Shown: one piece after another, positions 6,167 through 20,672 of the stretch
Layout: the number at the start of each line of letters is the position of its first letter
Position numbering within the stretch: the first letter of the stretch is position 1
Source of the DNA: an uncultured Sphingomonas sp.
GTDB taxonomy: Bacteria; Pseudomonadota; Alphaproteobacteria; Sphingomonadales; Sphingomonadaceae
Length of the DNA: 42,183 nt
Direction of reading: 5' to 3'
NCBI RefSeq assembly: GCF_913778135.1
Contig: NZ_CAJYVU010000026.1
Coordinates: 1 to 42,183 of the forward strand
The notes under the pieces: generated by a model
Database searches by the model: none
What the model was told of the DNA's origin: nothing
Seen by the model: only the letters and a program-made list of their open reading frames with translations
Position numbers and translations under genes: made by a program

Positions 6167-6702
6167 CGACCGATTGCCTCCAGAATGGCGCGCACCGTAT
6201 TCTCGTGCGGCGCATCTGCGCTCGCGACACGCAGGTGCGCGAGGCTGTAGAACGGGGTGCGCTTGGCGGCGAGATCGCGCAGCACGGCGCCGGCATCGCG
6301 GCCGCGTAGCAGCGGGCGCGTGTCGCGGCGACGCACGCGATCGACCAGCACCTCGACCGGCGCGTCGAGCCAGATCGACAGCGCGTCCGCCAGGATAAGC
6401 GCGCGGGTTTGATCGTTGATGAACGCGCCGCCGCCGGTCGCGATCACCTTCGGCTTGCCATCGATCAGCCGTGCGATCACGCGGCGTTCACCGTCGCGGA
6501 AATACGCCTCGCCGAAGCGGTCAAAGATGTCGGCGATCGTCATGCCCGCCGCATCCTCGATCTCGTGATCGGCATCGACGAAGGGCAGCTTCAGCCGGTT
6601 GGCGAGCCGTCGGCCGACGGTCGACTTGCCCACGCCCATCAGCCCGACCAGAACGATCGGTCGCCCCGTCCAGGCGGGGATCACGGGCGGGCTATGCAAC
6701 AT
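6163..6702 (-). CDS. aroK: Shikimate kinase
   Basis: The product is about 179 residues from the ATG at 6700-6702, close to the usual 170-180. It phosphorylates shikimate at O-3 with ATP. The sequence shows the Walker A loop GLMGVGKSTVG, the shikimate-binding DADHEIE, the GGGAF loop and the lid arginine region RDTRPLL. A GTG 63 bases upstream (6765) would extend it by 21 residues without recognisable sequence. Neither start has a clear Shine-Dalgarno. It is the first gene of the aroK-aroB pair. The promoter must lie between here and the divergent gene at 6789. Confidence 0.95.
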   Translation of the reverse strand: MLHSPPVIPAWTGRPIVLVGLMGVGKSTVGRRLANRLKLPFVDADHEIEDAAGMTIADIFDRFGEAYFRDGERRVIARLIDGKPKVIATGGGAFINDQTRALILADALSIWLDAPVEVLVDRVRRRDTRPLLRGRDAGAVLRDLAAKRTPFYSLAHLRVASADAPHENTVRAILEAIGR

Positions 6703-6788
6703 GATGGGGCGGGCTATACAGCGCACTTCGACACCGACGCCAGACCTAGCGCTCGGTGAGGTCACCCGTTCATGTGCAAGGTCCGGAT

Positions 6789-6923
6789 ATGCGTTTCATC
6801 GTCTCGCTCGTGGTGCTGATCGTCCTGGTCGTGGGTGCCTTGTTCTTCTTCGCCGGACGCGCGACCGAGCGGCCGGTGACGCAGATCGAGAAGCCGGTCG
6901 AGCTCGGCAACCTTGCCAATTAA
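6789..6923 (+). CDS. Small single-pass membrane protein of 44 residues
   Basis: The ATG at 6789 opens a 44-residue frame beginning MRFIVSLVVLIVLVVGALFF and ending VELGNLAN, with TAA at 6921-6923. The N-terminal 21 residues are a strong hydrophobic helix. The rest is a short polar, mildly charged tail. AAGG lies 6 bases before the ATG, which supports translation. The next gene starts with a TTG at 6913 inside the tail (11-base overlap), indicating a bicistronic unit. I know no named family. It is reported because the RBS, coding-like composition and coupling argue for a real gene that automatic calling would miss. Confidence 0.6.
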   Translation: MRFIVSLVVLIVLVVGALFFFAGRATERPVTQIEKPVELGNLAN

Positions 6924-8688
6924 GCACCTGCTGATCGGGGTCGCCGCGACAGCGATCACGGCGACGGCATTGGCGCAGGAGCGGCCGGAGTCGCTGCTGC
7001 CCCCCGGCTTCGGGCAGACACCGGCACCCGCGCCTGCACCGACGCCGACGCCTGGCAGCAGCAGTGACGCCGGAGCGACGCCGACTTCGAGCAACATCGC
7101 CGGCGCGCTGCCTGCGTTACCGCCGCTGGTGCTCCCCACTCCGACGCCTACGCCGTCGCCGACCCCTGACGCGGCGCAACTTGCGCTCTACGAGATGCCT
7201 GCATTCGCGCGGCGGTCGCTGACGCGGGTCGGTCCGATCGGAGCCGGTGACGGAGGAGTGAGCGCCGACGCGTTCGGTCGCGCCGACGGCCGTTACCTCG
7301 AAGTGCTGATGCGGCGCCTGTCGGCGCCGCTGCCGTCGCGCTGGATGTCGATCACGCTGCGTCGGCTGCTCGCCTCGCAACTGAACACGCCCTCACACGT
7401 GAACGGTGCCGATTTCGCGGCAGAGCGCGCATGGCTGCTGCTGCGAATGGGGGAGGCGGTGGCGGCGCGTGCGGTGGCGCATTCGGTCGACGTCGGCAAC
7501 GTCACGCCCAAGCTCGCGCAGGTGTGGATGCAGACCGCGCTCGCGACCGCCGACCCAGCCGGGCTGTGCACCTTGGCGCAATCGCCACGCGTGGCGGAAA
7601 GCGAGCCCGGCTGGATAGCCGCGCAGGCAATGTGTGCGGGCCTGACAGGCGAACCGACACGCCCGCTCGTTCAGAAGCTGCGCCGCCGCCGCATCGCGAG
7701 CGGAGTAGATCTGCAACTGGCACAGAAAGTGATCGGCGCAGGCGCCAACAGCGGGCAGGCGACCACGATCGAGTGGGATCCCGTATCTCAACTGACAGCG
7801 TGGCGCTGGGGCCTTGCGACCGCAACCGGTGTCGCCGTGCCGGACACGCTATACGAAACGGCCGGGCCGCAGGTCACCGGTTGGCGTGCGCTCGCCCCAG
7901 CCATTTCGCTAGCCGATCGGGCGAAGCCGGCCGAGCGCGCGGCGGCAATGGGGATCCTCTCCAATGCCGCGTTGGTCGATCTGTTCGCTGCCTCGCGTGA
8001 ACTGGAGGAAGCGCCCGCAGCATTGGCGCAGACCGCGAACGACCTGCAGGACGCTTATGTCGGCAGCGATCGCGCCACCCGGCTGAAAGCGATGACGGCG
8101 TTGTGGAACGGCGGCGACACGCCCGCCCTGCGCTATGCCCGGCTGATCCTGACGGCGCGCGCGGCGGGGCGTCTGACCGTGTTCGACGGGGTCGAGCAGG
8201 CGGACCAGCTGATCGCGTCGATGCTGTCGGCCGGTCTCGATCGCACCGCGATGCGCTGGCAGGGACACGTGCCGGCCGGCAGCGATGCCTGGGCGATGCT
8301 GCAGATCGCTGATCCGGATCGTTCGGGCAGTGGTTGGGGCAGCGTCGACGACTATGCGCCCACGGGCGCGAATGCGCAGCGTAAGAAGCAGCTGTTCTTC
8401 GCAAGCATGGCCGGGCTGGGTCGTATCGGCGCAAGCGAGGTCGAGGGGACAGCGCAGTCGCTCGACGTGCGCATTGGCGCGGCGAACGCGTGGACACGCG
8501 CACTCGATCGTGCGGCGGCGGAGGGGCAATCCGGCACCGTGGTGCTCCTATGTGCCGTTGGCATGCAGACGAACGACTGGGCAGGTGTTCCCCCCGCGGC
8601 CTTGTATCGCATCGTCGGCGCACTGCGCGCAGTTGGTCTGACAGGCGAGGCGCGCATGATCGCGGCGGAGGCGCTGACGCGCTTGTGA
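6913..8688 (+). CDS. Exported protein with Pro/Thr-rich linker, unknown function
   Basis: This 591-residue protein starts at TTG 6913 with a basic N-terminus and hydrophobic core (KHLLIGVAATAITATALAQE), consistent with a signal peptide cleaved near ALA. A low-complexity linker follows (about 35-90, repeated PAPAP, TPTPTPSPTP). A 500-residue Ala/Leu-rich helical domain then runs to the end, with a repeat-like solenoid feel (LAQVWMQTALATADPAGLCT, MTALWNGGDTPALRYARLIL). It therefore probably acts in the periplasm. It is tightly linked to the 44-residue membrane protein upstream and to xerD downstream, whose GTG overlaps this stop as GTGA. I do not recognise a characterised family. Confidence 0.75.
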   Translation: MPIKHLLIGVAATAITATALAQERPESLLPPGFGQTPAPAPAPTPTPGSSSDAGATPTSSNIAGALPALPPLVLPTPTPTPSPTPDAAQLALYEMPAFARRSLTRVGPIGAGDGGVSADAFGRADGRYLEVLMRRLSAPLPSRWMSITLRRLLASQLNTPSHVNGADFAAERAWLLLRMGEAVAARAVAHSVDVGNVTPKLAQVWMQTALATADPAGLCTLAQSPRVAESEPGWIAAQAMCAGLTGEPTRPLVQKLRRRRIASGVDLQLAQKVIGAGANSGQATTIEWDPVSQLTAWRWGLATATGVAVPDTLYETAGPQVTGWRALAPAISLADRAKPAERAAAMGILSNAALVDLFAASRELEEAPAALAQTANDLQDAYVGSDRATRLKAMTALWNGGDTPALRYARLILTARAAGRLTVFDGVEQADQLIASMLSAGLDRTAMRWQGHVPAGSDAWAMLQIADPDRSGSGWGSVDDYAPTGANAQRKKQLFFASMAGLGRIGASEVEGTAQSLDVRIGAANAWTRALDRAAAEGQSGTVVLLCAVGMQTNDWAGVPPAALYRIVGALRAVGLTGEARMIAAEALTRL

Positions 8689-9611
8689 CGCAAGCGCCAC
8701 CGCCCAGTGACCACGACGCGATCGATCGCTTTCTGGAGATGATGGCGGCGCAGGCGGGCGCAGCACGCAACACGCTGGCTGCATACCGGACCGACCTGCG
8801 GCTCGCGTCCGAACTGCTTAGCGGCGAGCTCGCGACCGCGCAGCCCGCGAGTTTGGAACGACTCTCGGCGAGCTGGCGCGATCTGTCGCGCGCCACGGTT
8901 GCGCGCAAGGCCGCGGCACTCCGACGCTTCTACGGCTTTTTGCTCGAGGAAGGTGACCGTGCCGACGATCCTTCATCCGCGCTCCCAAGACCGGGTACCG
9001 AACGCGGGTTGCCGCGCACCCTGTCGCACGATGAGGTCAACCGATTATTCTTGATTGTCGCCGAGCGGCTGCAACGCGATCCGCCGCTTGTACCCGACCT
9101 GCGGCTGTCGGCGCTGCTGGAACTGCTCTACGGCTCCGGCCTGCGCGCGAGCGAGTTGGTCGGCTTGCCGCGCGGTGCGGTGCAGGCGGACAAGCCGTTC
9201 CTGATCCTGCGCGGCAAGGGAGGGCGCGAGCGTCTGGTGCCTTTGTCCGATCGTGCCCGCGCCGCGGTTGCCGCATGGCGCGCTCATGTGCCGACCGATC
9301 AGGCGTTCCTGTTTCCTTCGGGAAAAACGCACCTCTCGCGCGTACGACTGTTTCAGATCGTTCGCGCCGTGGCGGCGGAGGCGGGGATCGCGCCCGAGCG
9401 CATGAGTCCGCACGTGCTGCGCCACGCCTTTGCCACGCATCTGCTCGAAGGCGGCGCCGACCTGCGCGCTTTACAATCCATGCTGGGGCACGCGGACATC
9501 GCCACGACTGAAATCTACACCCATGTCGACCGGCGTCGGCTGGTCGAGCTGGTGAACGAGCGCCACCCGCTACGCGAGGCGCTCGTTGACGCTGGCGCGC
9601 GCGCGTCCTAA
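8685..9611 (+). CDS. xerD: Site-specific tyrosine recombinase XerD
   Basis: The product is 308 residues from a GTG that overlaps the preceding stop by 4 bases. XerD, with XerC, resolves chromosome dimers at dif. The N-terminal SAM-like core-binding domain (about 10-95) contains NTLAAYRTDL and KAAALRRFYGFL. The catalytic domain has the full set of residues: R154 (YGSGLRASEL), K178 (RGKGGRERLVPL), H243 and R246 (SPHVLRHAFATHLLEGGADL), H269 (SMLGHADI) and nucleophile Y278 (TTEIYTHV). Adjacency to accA is the usual alphaproteobacterial order, which favours XerD over XerC. No integrase-like neighbours or att sites suggest a mobile element. Confidence 0.92.
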   Translation: MTQAPPPSDHDAIDRFLEMMAAQAGAARNTLAAYRTDLRLASELLSGELATAQPASLERLSASWRDLSRATVARKAAALRRFYGFLLEEGDRADDPSSALPRPGTERGLPRTLSHDEVNRLFLIVAERLQRDPPLVPDLRLSALLELLYGSGLRASELVGLPRGAVQADKPFLILRGKGGRERLVPLSDRARAAVAAWRAHVPTDQAFLFPSGKTHLSRVRLFQIVRAVAAEAGIAPERMSPHVLRHAFATHLLEGGADLRALQSMLGHADIATTEIYTHVDRRRLVELVNERHPLREALVDAGARAS

Positions 9612-9620
9612 CCGCGCGCG

Positions 9621-10568
<948 letters not shown>

Positions 10569-11843: not shown

Positions 11844-12849
11844 TATAATCAGCTGGATTTTTATCCAGGATCGAATGAGACAACGCTACGCTCGCGCGTC
11901 CACTGGTAGATCGCCAGTGGCTGGACCGCGGAGCTCGACCTCACCGGCTACACGGTGAGATCGGGCCTTTCTGCTCGCGGTCACGCAGACGTTCGTAGCG
12001 CCGGATTACGCGTTTCCAAACGGCAGTTTTCGGCAGAGCTACCAGGATTTCCGCCACGATCATCGCTTTGGGAGTGCGCGACGGGTGGTCGTGCATGACG
12101 GTCATCTTGCGGGAATGTGCAACCGGGTGAGCCTCGGCCTCGAGCATAACGCCACGGACTTCGCCAGCCTTCGCCAACAGCTGGCGGCGAGCGCGCTCCC
12201 TGCGGTGGACGTGCGCGACCCGGCGGTGCTCGCCCTGCCAACATCGCCTGCGATCTTCACCAGCAGTAACGTCACTTTCGCCTGGCACGTCAGCGTGACG
12301 GGTGCCGCCTATTACATTGAGCACCGCGACATTATCGCGCGCGATCCTGCCAATAGGTCGCTCGCGGTTCAGGGTCGACGTTAGTCGTGCGCGGTGTCGA
12401 GCTGACCGCCGCACTCTCATCGTTCAGGTCGCTGCGACTGTCGGGCGGCGCATCGTACACGGACGCGCGCTACGATGAATTGAACGAGGTCGTGGCCGGC
12501 ACGGCGGTCAGCAGGCGCGGCAATCGCTCGATCGACCTGCCGTTGACGACGCTCAACGCCTTCGTGCTCTACACGATCGCTCACGAGGTTACGCGTGGCA
12601 GTTTCCTGCGCCGTGCAAGCAACTTCTACATCGACATGGCGAATACGATCTGCGTCGCCGGACATAGCACCTTGGACGCAAGCATCTCGTCCCGGTCGCG
12701 CGCGCCGTCAGACTGACCACGATTGGGCGCAACCTGGCCCATGTTTTTCACGGCGATTATTCGGCTACCCCACCACCAACGTCTATATTGGCGCGACGCA
12801 AGCGTTCGAGAACGCGCTGGCGTCGCGGCTGAGGGCGCAACCGGTATGA
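11844..12849 (+). pseudogene. Decayed TonB-dependent siderophore receptor
   Basis: Pieces of a TonB-dependent receptor barrel can be read in several frames. Frame at 11844: YNQLDFYPGSNETTLRSRV, then an in-frame TAG at 11907 and ASGWTAELDLTGYTV. After a frameshift the text continues around 11960-12384 (TQTFVAPDYAFPNGSFRQSY, SPAIFTSSNVTFAW). A further piece lies at 12387-12716 (SLRLSGGASYTDARYDELNE, RRASNFYIDMANTI). The C-terminal end is in another frame (GYPTTNVYIGATQAFENALA, stop 12847-12849). The plug domain and signal peptide are missing. The 204 bases between the mutT stop and 11844 hold no recognisable gene. Such receptors import ferric siderophores. This copy cannot be functional. Confidence 0.75.
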
Positions 12850-14197: not shown

Positions 14198-15283
14198 ATG
14201 CATCGTGAAGAGAGCGAACCGAGGACAGTCGTGGAGCGGCTGCGCCCGGTCGTTAGCGCCTGGGATCAGGTGAACAGCGACGAGGACTTCCCGACCGAGC
14301 GACTGCAGACGCTGGTCGCACTCGGCGCGACGAGCGCCTTTGTCTCGCTAGGTGACGAAGATGCCGCGGCCGATCTACTGACGACGCTGCGCTTCATCGG
14401 TGGCGCCGACCTAAGCCTTGGGCGCATCTACGAAGGTCATGTTAACGCAGCGCAACTTGTCCAGGCCTACGGTTCCGCCGCACAACGCGAGATGCTCGCG
14501 CATGATTTGGTGGCGGGGCGCATCTACGGCGTTTGGAATACCGAGCCGGCGCCCGGCATGCAGATCGAGCAGGTCGCGGGCGGGCACCGTTTGTCGGGTG
14601 CAAAGAGCTTCGCGACCGGTGCCGGGCATATCGACAAGGCACTCATCACCGCCAGCCGCGCGGACGGTCGCAAGCAGATGGTGCTCGCCAATCTGTCCGA
14701 CACCGCTGCGCGTGTCGATAACAGCGCGTGGCAGGTGCGCGGCATGCGCGGCACCAAGAGCGGAACGCTCGATTTCGACGGCATGGTCGTCGGCGACGAC
14801 GCGCTGATCGGACGAGCGGGCGATTACGAGCAGGAACCGCGCTTCTCCGCCGGCGCTTGGCGGTTCACCGCGGTGCAGCTGGGCGCGGTCGAGGCGTTGG
14901 TGCGGCACTGGCGCGATCACCTCGTCGCGACCAACAAAGCCGATGACCCGATCCAGCGCGCGCGCATCGGCGCAGCGATCGTCGCGACGCGCTCTGCCGG
15001 GCTTTGGGTCGAGCGCGCTGCCCGGCTGGCGGAAAGCGGCTCGCCGCACGCGATCGCACACGTGCTGATGACGCGCGGCGTTGTCGAGGAGGCGGGGCTG
15101 CTGGTGATGGAGGGCGCCGCGCGATCGATCGGCACCGCGTCATTCTTCGCGAACAGCCGCGTCGACCGGATCACTCGCGATCTCGGCCTGTACCTGCGTC
15201 AGCCGGTGCCCGATCAGGCGCGTGACCGGGCGGCGGCGGCGTGGATCAAGGCGGATCGCTGGGGCGACGACTCGTGGTGGTGA
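14198..15283 (+). CDS. Acyl-CoA/acyl-ACP dehydrogenase-like protein of a sugar-modification cluster
   Basis: This 361-residue protein belongs to the acyl-CoA dehydrogenase fold: an N-terminal helical part (RTVVERLRPVVSAWDQ, FIGGADLSLGRIYEGHVNAA), a middle beta domain (VWNTEPAPGMQIEQVAGGHR, LSGAKSFATGAGHI) and a C-terminal helical domain. GAKSFATGAG replaces the common GxKxWITNG. The start is the ATG at 14198. A TTG at 14192 is better spaced from GGGGAGG (14177-14183), so it may be the true start. The stop overlaps the PIG-L gene as GTGA. The position ahead of a PIG-L deacetylase and a NodS-like methyltransferase suggests it works on an acyl group of a lipid or glycan precursor and not in beta-oxidation. 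The substrate is unknown. Confidence 0.8.
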   Translation: MHREESEPRTVVERLRPVVSAWDQVNSDEDFPTERLQTLVALGATSAFVSLGDEDAAADLLTTLRFIGGADLSLGRIYEGHVNAAQLVQAYGSAAQREMLAHDLVAGRIYGVWNTEPAPGMQIEQVAGGHRLSGAKSFATGAGHIDKALITASRADGRKQMVLANLSDTAARVDNSAWQVRGMRGTKSGTLDFDGMVVGDDALIGRAGDYEQEPRFSAGAWRFTAVQLGAVEALVRHWRDHLVATNKADDPIQRARIGAAIVATRSAGLWVERAARLAESGSPHAIAHVLMTRGVVEEAGLLVMEGAARSIGTASFFANSRVDRITRDLGLYLRQPVPDQARDRAAAAWIKADRWGDDSWW

Positions 15284-16023
15284 TCCCGGGCCAGGCGCAT
15301 TGGCGTCGCACGGTGCTGCGCGCGCGTCGGCTGCCGATCACGCAGGCCGCGCGTAACGGCTGGCTGATCCTCGCGCCCCATCCCGACGACGAGGCGCTCG
15401 GGGCTGGTGGGTTGATCGCCGGGCTGTCGCGCGCGGGCGCTAGGCTTCAGGTCGCCTTTCTCACCGATGGTGCCGCGAGCCACGTCGATGCGCCGGGGTG
15501 GACTGCGCGGCGCGTTGCCGCACTTCGCGCGGCCGAGGCTAAGGCTGCTCTACGCGTGCTCGGCGCCTCCGCGCCGCCAGCCTGGTGCGGCTGGCGTGAC
15601 GCGGCGCCGTTCACCGCCGATGACCCGCGATTGGTACGCACAGTCGACCGGTTGGTGGCAATGTGTCGCCGTCAGGGTCTGACCCGCATCGCAACGACTT
15701 GGTCCGCCGACCCGCATTGCGATCATCAGGCGGCGGCGGCGGTGGCGCGCGCCGTGGCGGGGCGTCTCGGCACCGTGCCGCTGTTCTACTGCGTCTGGGG
15801 ATGGACGCGCGGCGACATCGCGGAGCAGCTGGCGACGATGCGGCCGATCGTCATCTCCTCGCAGGGGCGTCGCGGCGTCGAGCGACGCGCGCTCGCGTGT
15901 CACCGCAGCCAGTTGGGTGGGCGGATCGCCGGCGCACGCGACCGTTTCGTGCTGCCCCGCGCGATGCGTCGCCTCGCCGATCGCCGGCTGACGCTCTTGC
16001 TGGAGGAACGCGATGAGGCGTGA
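15280..16023 (+). CDS. PIG-L family deacetylase
   Basis: The product is about 247 residues from a GTG overlapping the upstream stop (two further GTGs at 15274 and 15277 are equivalent). PIG-L/LmbE enzymes are zinc hydrolases that remove acetyl from N-acetylglucosamine-type sugars. The zinc and catalytic motif PHPDDEALG (His34, Asp36, Asp37) and the third ligand region PHCDHQAA (His146, His149) are intact. No signal peptide is seen, so it acts in the cytoplasm or on the inner membrane face. Its end overlaps the methyltransferase start by 11 bases. It may deacetylate the sugar that the methyltransferase and glycosyltransferase handle next (inference). Confidence 0.9.
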   Translation: MIPGQAHWRRTVLRARRLPITQAARNGWLILAPHPDDEALGAGGLIAGLSRAGARLQVAFLTDGAASHVDAPGWTARRVAALRAAEAKAALRVLGASAPPAWCGWRDAAPFTADDPRLVRTVDRLVAMCRRQGLTRIATTWSADPHCDHQAAAAVARAVAGRLGTVPLFYCVWGWTRGDIAEQLATMRPIVISSQGRRGVERRALACHRSQLGGRIAGARDRFVLPRAMRRLADRRLTLLLEERDEA

Positions 16024-16594
16024 ACGATCGATCGAACCCGCTTGGTTCGAGGCGCTGTTCAAGCAGCAGGGCGACCCGTGGCAGTTCGAGACGAGCGATT
16101 ACGAGCACGCAAAGTACGACCACACACTCGCAAGCCTGCCGCGCGCGCATTTCGAGTCCGCGCTCGAGGTCGGCTGCGCCAACGGCGTGCTGACGCAGCG
16201 ACTGGCGCCGCGCTGCGACGCGTTGCTGGCGATCGACGTCTCTCCGACCGCACTCGCCGCTGCGCACGCACGCTGCGCCGATCTGCATCAGGTTCGGTTC
16301 GAGCAGCGGCAGATGCCGGGCGACGCGCCGGCAGGAGCCTTCGATCTCGTCGTGCTGTCCGAAGTGATCTATTACTGGGATCAGGACGACCTGGCCCGCA
16401 GCGCGGAGTACCTGCGCGATCATGTGAACAAGGGCGGCGACATGCTGCTGGTCCATTGGACCGGCGACACAGACTATCCGATGTCAGGTGACGACGCTGT
16501 CGAGCGGCTCCGATCGCTGCTGGGAGACGCGATCGACGTGATCGGCGCGGAGCGGCGCGAGCGCTACCGGCTCGACCTTTTTCGTCGGCGCTGA
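16013..16594 (+). CDS. NodS-like SAM-dependent methyltransferase
   Basis: This 193-residue class I methyltransferase has motif I ALEVGCANGVLTQRLAP, the acidic loop LLAIDVSPTALAAA and motif IV FDLVVLSEVIYYWDQ. The overall layout (FEALFKQQGDPWQFETSDYE at the start) is characteristic of the NodS family, named after the Nod-factor N-methyltransferase that acts on the deacetylated glucosamine of rhizobial lipochitooligosaccharides. GGAGG at 16002-16006 precedes the ATG, which lies inside the PIG-L gene. The last 111 bases overlap the convergent glycosyltransferase. The pairing with a deacetylase supports N-methylation of a freed amine, but other acceptors are possible. Confidence 0.85.
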   Translation: MRRERSIEPAWFEALFKQQGDPWQFETSDYEHAKYDHTLASLPRAHFESALEVGCANGVLTQRLAPRCDALLAIDVSPTALAAAHARCADLHQVRFEQRQMPGDAPAGAFDLVVLSEVIYYWDQDDLARSAEYLRDHVNKGGDMLLVHWTGDTDYPMSGDDAVERLRSLLGDAIDVIGAERRERYRLDLFRRR

Positions 16595-17500
16595 TCGCCG
16601 TGCACGAACCATCGCGCCGGCGCATCGAACCGCTGCCGGCAGTGTCTCGAACGTGAGCCGGTCTTCCGCGGTCGCTCGCGCGGGATCGAGCGCGGCGGGG
16701 AAGGCGTAGGTTTCGTGTAGCGGCTCGTCGATCGGCTGCGCGATCCAGCGCGCGAACGCGTCGGCCATGCCTCCTGGCGCCCGTCCGTCAAGCCTGCTGG
16801 AGGTGAAGACGCGAACGTCGAGCGGGTGACGTACCATGCCGCCTGCAACGCGCACCGCTGCAAAAAGCGCCCGGTCCTCCGCGATCGGAGGTGTCGGTGC
16901 GCCGCCAATCCGGCGGTAGGTGCCAAGCGTCAGCGCAATGCTCGCGCCCCCTTCGTAGAAGTGACGCGGCCACGGATCGTGCGGCGAAGGCGCCGCATCG
17001 GCGCGCAGCCAGTCGAGCGCGGTATAGTAGCGACCGAGCAGATTGAGCCGCCGCATCGCCTCGACACCTAGCGAGCGGCGATCGTCGCGACGCGTCAGCG
17101 CACGACCCGCAACAGCGTCTATCCCGCCGCGAAGATGCCCGACCGCCCGCACGATCCATTCGGGTGACACGCGGGTATCCGCGTCGGTCGACATGAGAAC
17201 GTCGTCAGAATCTTTCAGCGTCGCGGCGGCGGCGTCGAAGGCCAAGCGGCGCGCCCAGCCAGCGTGGCGGAACGCCGGCAGCAACGAAACAGAGATCGGC
17301 AGCAGCGCGGCGTTGCGCATGCGCGCTTCCTCCAGCACGAGCGCGGTCGCGTCGGTGCAATTGTTCGCCACGACCACGACGGTCACCTTGCCGGCAAAGC
17401 GCGCGGCGGCGCAATCTAGCGCGTCGAGGCAGGCGGGCAGGTCGCCCGCCTCGTTCTTCGCCGGCAGTGCAACCGCGACGCGTGGCGACAGATCGCTCAT
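16484..17500 (-). CDS. Glycosyltransferase family 2
   Basis: The product is about 338 residues from the ATG at 17498-17500. The GT-A fold is visible in VAVALPAKNEAGDLPACLDA, VVVVANNCTDAT and the metal-binding DxD motif in MSTDADTRVSPEWIV, followed by an acceptor-side region (FYEGGASIALTLGTYRRIGG, IAEDRALFAAVRVAGG). No membrane helix is seen. The frame continues through the end of the convergent methyltransferase gene, giving a basic tail (RARRSAPTKKVEPVALAPLR) that lacks family character, so the ancestral stop may have been lost. An upstream extension to 17557 is less likely. It probably completes the dehydrogenase/PIG-L/NodS set and may transfer the sugar those enzymes modify. Confidence 0.85.
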   Translation of the reverse strand: MSDLSPRVAVALPAKNEAGDLPACLDALDCAAARFAGKVTVVVVANNCTDATALVLEEARMRNAALLPISVSLLPAFRHAGWARRLAFDAAAATLKDSDDVLMSTDADTRVSPEWIVRAVGHLRGGIDAVAGRALTRRDDRRSLGVEAMRRLNLLGRYYTALDWLRADAAPSPHDPWPRHFYEGGASIALTLGTYRRIGGAPTPPIAEDRALFAAVRVAGGMVRHPLDVRVFTSSRLDGRAPGGMADAFARWIAQPIDEPLHETYAFPAALDPARATAEDRLTFETLPAAVRCAGAMVRARRSAPTKKVEPVALAPLRADHVDRVSQQRSEPLDSVVT

Positions 17501-17633: not shown

Positions 17634-18923
17634 ATGACGAACCTTCGCGCCGTCGGGCTGGATTTCGGCACCACCAACACGGTCGTCGCCGTGGCCGACC
17701 GCGCCGCGCGTTCCGCACGGCTGCTGACACTTGATTGCGACGGTGGAAGCGAGGTGTTCCGCTCGGCCCTGTGTTTCTGGCAGGATGAGGACGCGCGCGG
17801 TGGTTTGATGGTGGAGGCCGGACCGGCCGCGATCCGCGAGTATCTGGAATATCCGGACGGCAGCCGCTTCCTGCAATCCTTCAAATCGGTCGCGGCGAGT
17901 GCCTCCTTCGACACCGCCCCCGTCTTCAACAAGCGCTATCGCTTTGAGGAACTCGGACATGCCTTCCTCAACCGTTTGAGCGAGCATGCCGGCGACGCCT
18001 TCTCGCGCCTCGACCGTTTGGTGGTGGGACGGCCGGTCCGCTATGCCGGAGCGAGACCCGATGAGGCGCTTGCACGAGAACGCTACGACGCGATGTTCGC
18101 CGGACGCGCCGCCGACATCCATTACGTTTACGAACCGCTCGCTGCCGCGTATAGCTACGCTGCGCGCCTGGCCGATCCCGCCACGCTGCTGGTGGCTGAT
18201 TTTGGCGGCGGCACCAGCGACTTCTCGGTCGTGCGGATCGAGCCTGACGGAGGCGGGCCTCAATGCCGGCCGCTCGGCCATGCTGGTGTCGGCATCGCGG
18301 GTGACCGGTTCGACTATCGCATCGTCGATCGACTTATGCTGCCGTTGCTTGGCAAGGGCGGAGCCTATCGCTCGTTCGACAAGATCTTGGAGATCCCAGG
18401 CGGCTATTTTGCCGATTTCGGCGACTGGTCGAAGCTCGCGCTGATGCGCAATCGCCGGACGCTGGCGGAGCTCGAGCGACTGCAGCGCAGCGCAGTTGAC
18501 GCGCAAGCGATCGGGCGTATGATCGCGATCATCGAGCATGAACTCGGCTTTCCGCTTTACGATGCGGTTGGTCGGTTGAAGCGCGAGTTGTCGTTCGCGG
18601 ACGCAGCCGAGTTCCGCTTCGCGGGTGGCGAGCTGGATATCGTGGCGAGCGTCGAGCGCATTGAGTTCGAACGCTGGATCGCCGACGATGTCGCCCGCAT
18701 GGCGACCGCAGTCGATGAGGCGCTCGTCGATGCGAATATAGAGGCAGGCGCGATCGATCGCGTGTTCCTGACCGGCGGCACCTCGCTCGTCCCCGCGGTG
18801 CGACGGTTATTCGAGCAACGTTTCGGTGCTGACCGGATTGACGCGGGTGGTGAACTCACCTCGATCGCGCACGGCCTCGCGTTGATCGCGCAATCGGACG
18901 ATCTGTCCGGCTGGACGGTCTAA
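17634..18923 (+). CDS. Hsp70 family protein, YegD-like
   Basis: This 429-residue protein has the actin/Hsp70 ATPase fold: phosphate loop 1 GLDFGTTNTVVAVA, phosphate loop 2 LLVADFGGGTSDFSVV and the adenosine motif VFLTGGTSLVPAVRRLFEQ. It ends soon after the ATPase domain and lacks the substrate-binding domain of DnaK, as in the E. coli YegD group. It may be a chaperone-like regulator, but no client is known. The ATG at 17634 lies directly before the conserved N-terminus. The 133 bases to the divergent glycosyltransferase start must contain both promoters. The open frame upstream to 17043 is opposite that gene and is not used. Confidence 0.88.
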   Translation: MTNLRAVGLDFGTTNTVVAVADRAARSARLLTLDCDGGSEVFRSALCFWQDEDARGGLMVEAGPAAIREYLEYPDGSRFLQSFKSVAASASFDTAPVFNKRYRFEELGHAFLNRLSEHAGDAFSRLDRLVVGRPVRYAGARPDEALARERYDAMFAGRAADIHYVYEPLAAAYSYAARLADPATLLVADFGGGTSDFSVVRIEPDGGGPQCRPLGHAGVGIAGDRFDYRIVDRLMLPLLGKGGAYRSFDKILEIPGGYFADFGDWSKLALMRNRRTLAELERLQRSAVDAQAIGRMIAIIEHELGFPLYDAVGRLKRELSFADAAEFRFAGGELDIVASVERIEFERWIADDVARMATAVDEALVDANIEAGAIDRVFLTGGTSLVPAVRRLFEQRFGADRIDAGGELTSIAHGLALIAQSDDLSGWTV

Positions 18924-19412: not shown

Positions 19413-20672
19413 TCAGGCGGGCGATGCGGAGGTATGACGACTTAAGGGCACTGATGCATCTGCCAACACGCCAGGATTGAGGGATGTACCTGCCTCGATT
19501 AATTTGCGGCCCTGAACATAGTCTTTGACGCTGTTTACAGCATCTATTGCGATCAAGTGATCGTCTTTGAAATACAAAACAGAGAACGACCGCGTTGCCA
19601 AATCGCCGCGTATAAGGCTTCGATCGTAGCCGATAGACAGGCCTGCGGTCTGAAGTTTCAAATCGTATTGGTTCGACCAGAACCAGGGGAACGCGGCATA
19701 GGGCAGGGCATCGCCCACGATGTCGCGCGCGACGCAGCTAGCCTGATCGTTGGCGTTCTGTACTGACTCGACCCGCATCCGAAGCCCACCTGCATGGACG
19801 TTCGCGAATGCGGCGCAGTCGCCAATGGCGTAGATGTTGGCGAGCGATGTTCTGCAATATTCATCAACGTCAACGCCGTTGCTGCCCGCCGCTCCGGCGA
19901 CGAGAAGCGGCTCGACCGACGGAACGATGCCGATGCCGACGATGACCGCATCGGCGGGCAGCACACTGCCGTCAGCCAATAGCACCCCGTCAACGCGCTT
20001 GTTCCCAACGAGGCAGTCTACAGCGACGCCGGTTCGCAGGTCGACACCTTGGTCACGATGTTGCTGTTCGTAGAACGAAGATAGTTCAGGGCCTGCGACG
20101 CGCGCTAGAACACGTGGTAATGCTTCGAGCAAGGTAACCCGGCAGCCGAGCTTTCTCAGGACTGCGGCGGCTTCCAGACCGATATAGCCGCCGCCGATCA
20201 CGACAAAGGTACGCGCGCCTTCGTCGATTTCACGCATCAGTTGGTCGCAGTCGGCACGCGACCTTACCGTATGCACCCCTTCCAAATTGGCTCCGGAGCA
20301 TGTCAGCCGACGCGGTTGCCCGCCGGTTGCCCATACAAGCTTCGAATAACCGATGCTCCGCCCGTCGGATAGCGTCAGCAACCCCCGCGAGGGATCGACC
20401 GCGGTGACCGCGAAGCCAAGCTCCATTGCCACCGACTTGTTCTGCCAGAAGACGGCAGGGCGGATATAAAGCCGCTCGAAGCTTTTCTCGCCCGCCAGAT
20501 ATTCTTTCGACAGTGCCGGCCGTTCATAAGGCGGTTCGGGCTCGAGTCCGATCATGGCGATCGAACCGGCAAAACCCCGCTGACGCAACGCGATTGCACA
20601 CTGCGCACCGCCGTGGCCTGCGCCGACGATCACGACGTCGTACCGTGTATCGGACTTGGTCTGGGCGGTCAT
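19413..20672 (-). CDS. FAD-dependent ferredoxin reductase (class I P450 electron donor)
   Basis: The 419-residue flavoprotein has the FAD-binding [16 protein letters not shown] (GxGxxG at 17-22), [12 protein letters not shown] typical of putidaredoxin-reductase-like enzymes, the NADH-binding [15 protein letters not shown], and the second FAD motif [10 protein letters not shown]. Such reductases pass electrons from NADH to a [2Fe-2S] ferredoxin that reduces a P450. GAGAGGAG upstream supports the ATG at 20670-20672. The matching ferredoxin (27611) and two P450s (34232, 37550) lie further along the island, so the pieces of one chain are dispersed and not in one operon. The gene appears monocistronic. 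Confidence 0.9.

Follow-up and report, generated by a model that had tools for sequence, protein, structure and literature searches.

The rhizobial nodB-nodC-nodS genes are among the described systems closest to a four-gene cassette found in DNA from an uncultured Sphingomonas sp. (contig NZ_CAJYVU010000026.1, positions 1 to 42,183; this whole stretch of 42,183 nucleotides is called the window). The cassette encodes a protein with the acyl-CoA dehydrogenase (ACAD) fold, a PIG-L family N-deacetylase, a NodS-like methyltransferase and a GT2-family glycosyltransferase. It shares with the nod genes a glycosyltransferase of the GT2 fold, an N-deacetylase, and a methyltransferase with the DPW and E..YY motifs of NodS. 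In contrast to the nod genes, the deacetylase is PIG-L and not the CE4 protein NodB, the glycosyltransferase is not NodC, the methyltransferase is far from NodS, an ACAD-fold enzyme is added, and the surroundings are of a stress type and do not contain nodulation genes. The cassette is a unit common to many bacteria, and its product is probably a methylated amino-sugar compound. An earlier note on this DNA had proposed Nod-factor-like logic outside symbiosis; as gene logic, this is well supported.

Other described systems share parts of the cassette. Trifunctional proteins annotated as glycosyltransferase, NodS-type methyltransferase and polysaccharide deacetylase in Sulfitobacter, Gloeothece and Rhizobium leguminosarum carry three of its reaction types on one polypeptide (L131 6396–9476, L241 2414–5416 and L242 2958–6434; Pfam domains were confirmed for L131 only, from Sulfitobacter). 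Unlike the cassette, they have a CE4 deacetylase, no ACAD is annotated in the stretches examined, and the surroundings of two of the three contain glycosyltransferases and an ABC transporter. The cassette PIG-L protein shares sequence family and zinc-site motifs with diacetylchitobiose deacetylase and with BshB and MshB, but it scores below the curated cut-offs for the latter two and has different partners. The best profile matches of the ACAD-fold protein, whose family has no dehydrogenase glutamate, are monooxygenases of the DszC/MsuC/nitrososynthase type; identity to them is about 20%, and flavin-dependent O2 activation may be supposed from profile and fold similarity. Finally, in some genomes the cassette sits close to the trehalose genes otsAB or treZ-malQ-treY-glgX and on their strand. 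Bacterial trehalose operons are not known to include amino-sugar tailoring genes.

The four genes are a real conserved unit. When 289 Alphaproteobacteria genomes, drawn evenly, were searched, five had the GT2 protein (E ≤ 1e-8), and these are exactly the genomes in which the ACAD match is strong (E ≤ 5.9e-41); a further four have weak ACAD matches alone (E 9e-12 to 8e-11, best 9.2e-12). The Fisher test for this co-occurrence, with an ACAD limit chosen after the gap in E values was seen, gives p = 6e-11, or p = 3.6e-9 without the window's own genome. Three of the four strong-ACAD genomes other than the window's have the GT2, ACAD, PIG-L and methyltransferase genes in line; the fourth (G283) has the ACAD and methyltransferase genes together and the PIG-L gene and a GT2 gene elsewhere, about 3 kb apart. 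At E ≤ 1e-10 the PIG-L and methyltransferase families are spread more broadly (7 and 12 of the 289 genomes, respectively).

Among named genomes, 71 of 80 loci have members of all four families no more than 5 kb from the ACAD gene, these being the best 80 of at least 506 confirmed ACAD relatives, a sample that leans toward the window's type. The nine exceptions are L056 and L057, whose contigs are short or truncated, a locus without GT2 (L058), a locus without PIG-L (L059), four Methylobacterium loci with the methyltransferase alone (L104, L109, L112, L114) and one with none of the partners (L116). The closest named ACAD relative among the matches listed is that of Sphingomonas palmae (90%). 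In a sample that leans less to the window's type, the cassette ACAD was found in 35 of 398 Pseudomonadota genomes (profile, E ≤ 1e-25), with relatives in other phyla too. Within 5 kb of it, the methyltransferase is present in 32 of the 35 genomes, PIG-L in 29 (L169 by a weak match) and all four families in 25. Two loci of this sample, L171 and L172, have no partner gene near the ACAD gene and are probably ordinary ACAD relatives. The co-occurrence across genomes that the earlier note had proposed to check is therefore borne out, as is its statement that pairs of PIG-L and methyltransferase, sometimes fused, recur next to GT2 genes; one fusion (L181) was found, in the 35-genome sample.

Each family, broadly taken, is common, and the four genes might in principle be chance neighbours with unrelated functions. 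This explanation was refuted by control windows and by the exact co-occurrence of GT2 and ACAD genes across genomes, and we give it practically no credence. None of the four families was found in 35 control windows of 20 kb, set by hand at round coordinates elsewhere in 26 of the 35 genomes, whereas 32 ACAD-centred windows (L171, L172 and the window itself excluded) contain GT2 in 25 cases, PIG-L in 27 and the methyltransferase in 31.

The gene order is less conserved than the gene content. Of the 80 named loci, 26 resemble the window in having the GT2 gene convergent and downstream, and 46 have it co-directional and upstream. A compact form, ACAD-PIG-L-methyltransferase followed by a short GT2 (roughly 220–250 aa), is common among genomes of other classes. 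The ACAD, PIG-L and methyltransferase genes are close together in Deinococcus records (one unrelated gene is interposed in each of the two examined) and in a record of the actinobacterium Kitasatospora, and together with a GT2 gene in Nostoc. Constant membership with variable synteny points to a shared pathway. The distribution is patchy and partly plasmid-borne. In L012, which has the window's genus code, a co-directional and very divergent copy (6700–9974, ACAD 38% identical) suggests a separate acquisition.

Many named relatives have further glycosyltransferases in line: GT4 in 43, a GT28-like protein in 30 and a second GT2 in 34 of 91 loci, all lower bounds obtained with a simple gene caller. 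In the window genome, no GT28-like match was found and GT4 matched only at 32%. GT4 and the GT28-like protein were therefore rejected as part of the window's pathway and treated as accessory, and the core does not depend on them. In four loci of one genus a second PIG-L-family match lies just 3' of the cassette (L184 12537–13223, L189 6323–7006, L190 11931–12611 and L191 6535–7221).

All four genes are intact in the window (Table 1), and the short overlaps and the convergent GT2 gene described in the earlier note were confirmed. The methyltransferase and GT2 frames also overlap tail to tail, by 4 to 372 bp, in 25 of 25 other named convergent loci measured (L040–L055, L059–L064, L082, L101 and L118). 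In plasmid records the two gene ends overlap by 35 bp (L124) or are separated by gaps of 101 and 242 bp (L121, L122).

Table 1. Coordinates of the cassette genes and of their overlaps in the window (aa, amino acids; SAM, S-adenosylmethionine)
Feature	Positions	Strand	Remarks
ACAD-fold flavoenzyme of the cassette	14198–15283	+	361 aa; lacks the catalytic Glu of acyl-CoA dehydrogenases
PIG-L (LmbE) family N-deacetylase	15280–16023	+	247 aa, GTG start; PHPDDE and HCDH intact
NodS-like SAM-dependent methyltransferase	16013–16594	+	193 aa
GT2-family glycosyltransferase	16484–17500	-	338 aa; contains DxD; converges on the methyltransferase gene; no membrane helix recognised
ACAD/PIG-L overlap	15280–15283	+	4 bp, GTGA
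PIG-L/methyltransferase overlap	16013–16023	+	11 bp, letters ATGAGGCGTGA
Methyltransferase/GT2 reading frames, tail-to-tail overlap	16484–16594		111 bp

The gene names given in the earlier note agree with Pfam and NCBIfam, with two reservations: the ACAD protein as a whole stays under the Pfam cut-offs, and the methyltransferase is far from the NodS equivalog. The PIG-L protein matches PF02585 (78.1 bits, cut-off 28.2), with PHPDDE at 33–38 and HCDH at 146–149, and the GT2 protein matches PF00535 (30.5 bits, cut-off 23.3), with DAD at 106–108. These motifs, already pointed out in the earlier note, are also invariant: seven tested PIG-L letters in 110 of 110 aligned relatives, and five tested GT2 letters (DxD, ED) in 99 of 99. 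The methyltransferase passes the Pfam NodS cut-off (PF05401, 66 vs 24 bits) and falls well below that of the NodS equivalog NF041650 (80.5 vs 300 bits); its D21, P22, E117 and Y120 are invariant in 122 of 122. The alignments include a few genomes twice, and low-scoring rows were excluded before counting (two PIG-L, eight GT2, mainly of the short form, three ACAD and no methyltransferase rows).

The methyltransferase profile is nearest to 4isc and then to NodS (7e-28). In a 59-row methyltransferase tree without an outgroup, NodS forms one clade on a long branch (2.94) whose placement is not settled (86/74), and descent of NodS from the cassette methyltransferase was accordingly not concluded. 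Gene Ontology terms for nodulation are attached to cassette methyltransferases and are probably misleading.

A plasmid of Rubrobacter indicoceani has a different deacetylase at the corresponding place. Its operon (L127 5969–10620) has the order polysaccharide deacetylase-ACAD-methyltransferase-oxidoreductase-glycosyltransferase, with a CE4 deacetylase of the NodB family directly 5' of the ACAD gene and a ferredoxin-reductase-like flavoprotein gene between the methyltransferase and glycosyltransferase genes. No PIG-L was recognised in the operon's 16.5-kb stretch, and with the one seed used, a CE4 gene near the cassette was seen in this Rubrobacter relative only. Taken with the PIG-L and methyltransferase profile matches, the invariant letters and the L181 fusion, the Rubrobacter CE4 gene supports a core logic in which deacetylation comes first and N-methylation second. 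An N-methylated, possibly acylated amino-sugar conjugate outside symbiosis had been proposed for the cassette in the earlier note; the deacetylate-then-N-methylate part of that proposal is supported, and the acyl part is not.

Deacetylases of the PIG-L family also act in the mycothiol and bacillithiol pathways, and N-methyl-bacillithiol is known. The product could accordingly be an N-methylated low-molecular-weight thiol or redox cofactor of this kind, which would suit the catalase genes seen near many cassettes. The cassette PIG-L protein does give BshB1 and MshB scores, but all of these are under the curated cut-offs (43 vs 182.5, 33.6 vs 195.25 and 20.8 vs 224.35 bits, the first for BshB1 and the last for MshB). 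Its best profile matches are 3wl4 (5e-23; the entry is named 'Uncharacterized protein') and, at 1.4e-22, diacetylchitobiose deacetylase, with BshB at 1.8e-16. The core glycosyltransferase is GT2 and not GT4, and the compact cassettes examined have no cysteine ligase among their annotated neighbours, although no specific search for one was made. We consider a thiol product very unlikely; the mycothiol-type route, which the earlier note had named among possible refutations of its proposal, is disfavoured.

The ACAD-fold protein departs most from its annotation. As a whole protein it scores below three Pfam cut-offs (22 vs 33.3, 21.4 vs 22.4 and 19.9 vs 22.9 bits), and in the genome search it reaches 22.5 bits against a cut-off of 22.4. 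In comparison with a single genuine ACAD from the window's genome, the glutamate of YEGT, which we take to be the catalytic motif, is replaced in YLRQxxPD. With this motif and the presumed alternative helix position inspected by eye, Glu is absent at P0001 positions 334–337 and 221–223 in 123 of 123 aligned relatives (L170, L171 and L172 excluded as low-scoring), and Gln stands at 335 in all 123. The designation 'acyl dehydrogenase' is doubtful because the dehydrogenase glutamate is missing: acyl-CoA dehydrogenase activity is unlikely, and flavin-dependent oxidation of some other substrate is likely, as judged from sequence. The family profile ranks DszC first (E 1.6e-24), followed by MsuC (2.3e-21) and by dehydrogenases from about 1e-18, with KijD3 and a nitrososynthase at 3e-15 and 9e-15. 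Structure prediction, which had been proposed as a check, gave models with a predicted local distance difference test (pLDDT) score of 89 for the ACAD protein, a confident value, and 87 for the GT2 protein; the GT-A matches of the latter are distant and do not indicate a donor.

KijD3, DnmZ and nitrososynthases are among the ACAD relatives in profile and fold searches. Together with the patchy, partly plasmid-borne distribution and the major facilitator superfamily (MFS) genes near three plasmid cassettes, they are consistent with a secondary metabolite that is secreted, resembles an antibiotic or signal and includes an N-methyl amino sugar; in its synthesis the ACAD protein would be a nitrososynthase-like N-oxygenase of the amino sugar. 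Such a product appears quite improbable: DszC-type enzymes and dehydrogenases score equal or higher, no scaffold-making gene was recognised in the neighbour clusters of at least 12 loci (partly annotated), and the neighbourhoods are of a stress type.

Two loci on Deinococcus plasmids (L120 8546–10885, L128 3445–5817) have a cassette ACAD gene of much greater length than other loci. A GT2-ACAD fusion in Deinococcus radiodurans was considered and rejected, the N-terminal 400 residues being unmatched in Pfam (E ≤ 0.01) and among PDB sequences (E ≤ 0.1). By eye, the N-terminal 400 residues of L120, for which no Pfam or PDB match was found, resemble a glycoside-hydrolase barrel.

Stress genes are frequent near the cassette. 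Genes for KatE, trehalose or glycogen metabolism, Ku, LigD or CsbD, families picked from loci other than the test windows, occur in 13 of the 32 cassette windows and in one of the 35 controls (p = 1.3e-4); collapsed by genus, the counts are 10/23 vs at most 1/19 (p = 0.0054). A KatE-type catalase is near 34 of 92 loci, a set that repeats related strains. OtsA, OtsB, TreY or TreZ are near the cassette in 9/32 windows vs 2/35 controls (p = 0.015), with seeds taken in part from a counted locus (L189).

In several genomes the trehalose genes are in line with the cassette. Comamonas endophytica has otsA-ACAD-PIG-L-methyltransferase-glycosyltransferase-otsB as a single tight run, and L173 and L186 have otsB-otsA-ACAD-PIG-L-methyltransferase-glycosyltransferase on one strand. 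In L184, L189, L190 and L191 the order is treZ-malQ-treY-glgX-ACAD-PIG-L-methyltransferase, also on one strand (family names checked for L189). Genome-wide, OtsA (PF00982 over the cut-off) is present in 26/33 cassette genomes vs 6/20 genomes without the cassette (p = 5.8e-4), the latter being nearly all from the window's order and searched for OtsA but not for TreYZ or TreS. It is also present in 11 of 11 named cassette genomes searched. In the window genome, otsA lies on a different contig from the cassette.

We tentatively propose, at somewhat less than an even chance, that the cassette enzymes work inside the cell and make an N-methylated amino-sugar glycoside for use under stress. A soluble GT2 enzyme would add N-acetylhexosamine to a small intracellular acceptor, the PIG-L enzyme would then remove the acetyl group, and the NodS-like enzyme would methylate the freed amine. 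The ACAD-fold flavoenzyme may carry out another, flavin-monooxygenase-like oxidation of the amine or the sugar, and not acyl-CoA dehydrogenation. The product would serve in desiccation, osmotic or oxidative stress and would often be made beside trehalose. We infer every chemical step, as well as the acceptor and the role of the cassette. Trehalose is our favoured guess for the acceptor. In its most specific form, which is rather unlikely, the cassette would make a hexosaminyl-trehalose that is deacetylated, N-methylated and flavin-oxidised, a new class of amino-trisaccharide stress solutes for intracellular desiccation protection found in several phyla and partly on plasmids. If the proposal is true, the amino-sugar chemistry of Nod factors enters general stress physiology, and there are concrete metabolites to look for, with the trehalose operons as a clue to the acceptor.

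The same reaction logic is met in Nod-factor-like surface glycolipids, and the cassette could make an N-methylated, acylated amino-sugar lipid or lipo-oligosaccharide, with the ACAD protein desaturating the acyl chain. Hyaluronan- and chondroitin-type GT2 enzymes are among the matches of the GT2 model, many relatives have additional glycosyltransferases, and annotated trifunctional proteins (domains checked for one) occur away from nod clusters. The MFS transporter genes close to three plasmid cassettes also fit an exported product. However, the catalytic Glu is missing from the ACAD protein, no membrane helix was recognised in the GT2 protein, and its NodC score is far under the cut-off (TIGR04242, 16.6 vs 550 bits). 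By a simple measure, no hydrophobic stretch of membrane-helix strength was found in any of the four proteins. The neighbour clusters shared by at least 12 of 91 loci, some of which were run against Pfam, include no recognised transporter, and a surface glycolipid leaves the in-line trehalose genes unexplained. We therefore consider this product unlikely. The suggestions of the earlier note that the conjugate is 'possibly acylated' and that cell-surface glycolipids should be compared are not supported, given the missing Glu (NodA was not searched for) and, the MFS genes notwithstanding, the lack of recognised membrane helices.

Several observations weigh against the proposed intracellular stress glycoside. 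The cassette has no known product, substrate or phenotype, and no product is named for it in titles and abstract openings of the open-licence literature among the matches listed. The monooxygenase assignment has its basis in the missing Glu and the ranking of profile matches; in fold comparison, dehydrogenases and DszC score equally well (Z 33–34 for both), and this comparison was set aside as a means of telling them apart. The four in-line treYZ cases (L184, L189, L190 and L191) come from a single genus. Counted by genus, trehalose-synthesis genes are not significantly enriched (6/23 vs at most 2/19, p = 0.19), and the trehalose case is therefore carried by the in-line arrangements and not by enrichment alone. 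KatE alone is marginal (4/32 vs 0/35, p = 0.047) and otsA alone is not significant (3/32 vs 1/35, p = 0.27). No stress-set seed matches within the window's 42 kb, and one KatE query had no match in the window genome (a search without a positive control). Co-regulation alone could explain the linkage of cassette and stress genes. The earlier note saw no export gene in the window, but in the three plasmid records the MFS transporter genes are a few kb or less from the cassette and could mean export. The four Methylobacterium loci keep together only the ACAD and methyltransferase genes, two of these loci being short contigs.

Expression data are available for a putative cassette operon of Acinetobacter baumannii. 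In Table 2 of PMC5660220, ACICU_02432-02435 (glycosyltransferase, SAM-dependent methyltransferase, LmbE protein and putative ACAD-related protein) form one operon that is 31- to 62-fold down in both colistin-dependent mutants, along with otsA, otsB and a catalase gene; section 8 of that paper does not discuss the operon. We equate these genes with the cassette by annotation, by a plasmid of A. johnsonii that has ACAD-PIG-L-methyltransferase-glycosyltransferase near otsAB and a catalase gene, and by the presence of A. baumannii among the methyltransferase matches; the four sequences themselves were not compared. The Acinetobacter transcriptomes for Tol 5 desiccation (PMC13130816) and imipenem (PMC4192346) contain no cassette rows in the passages covered.

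Beside the cassette, the window encodes a ferredoxin-reductase-like flavoprotein (19413–20672) and an Hsp70-family protein (17634–18923). The reductase is not claimed as a partner of the cassette because such a gene was seen near no more than 6 of 92 loci and in none of the 32 test windows; it lies inside the operon in Rubrobacter only. On the other side, the stretch just 5' of the cassette (noted at 12387–12716) looks as if its genes had decayed, with mainly short open reading frames, one of them a weak fragment of a TonB-dependent-receptor barrel, below the Pfam cut-off.

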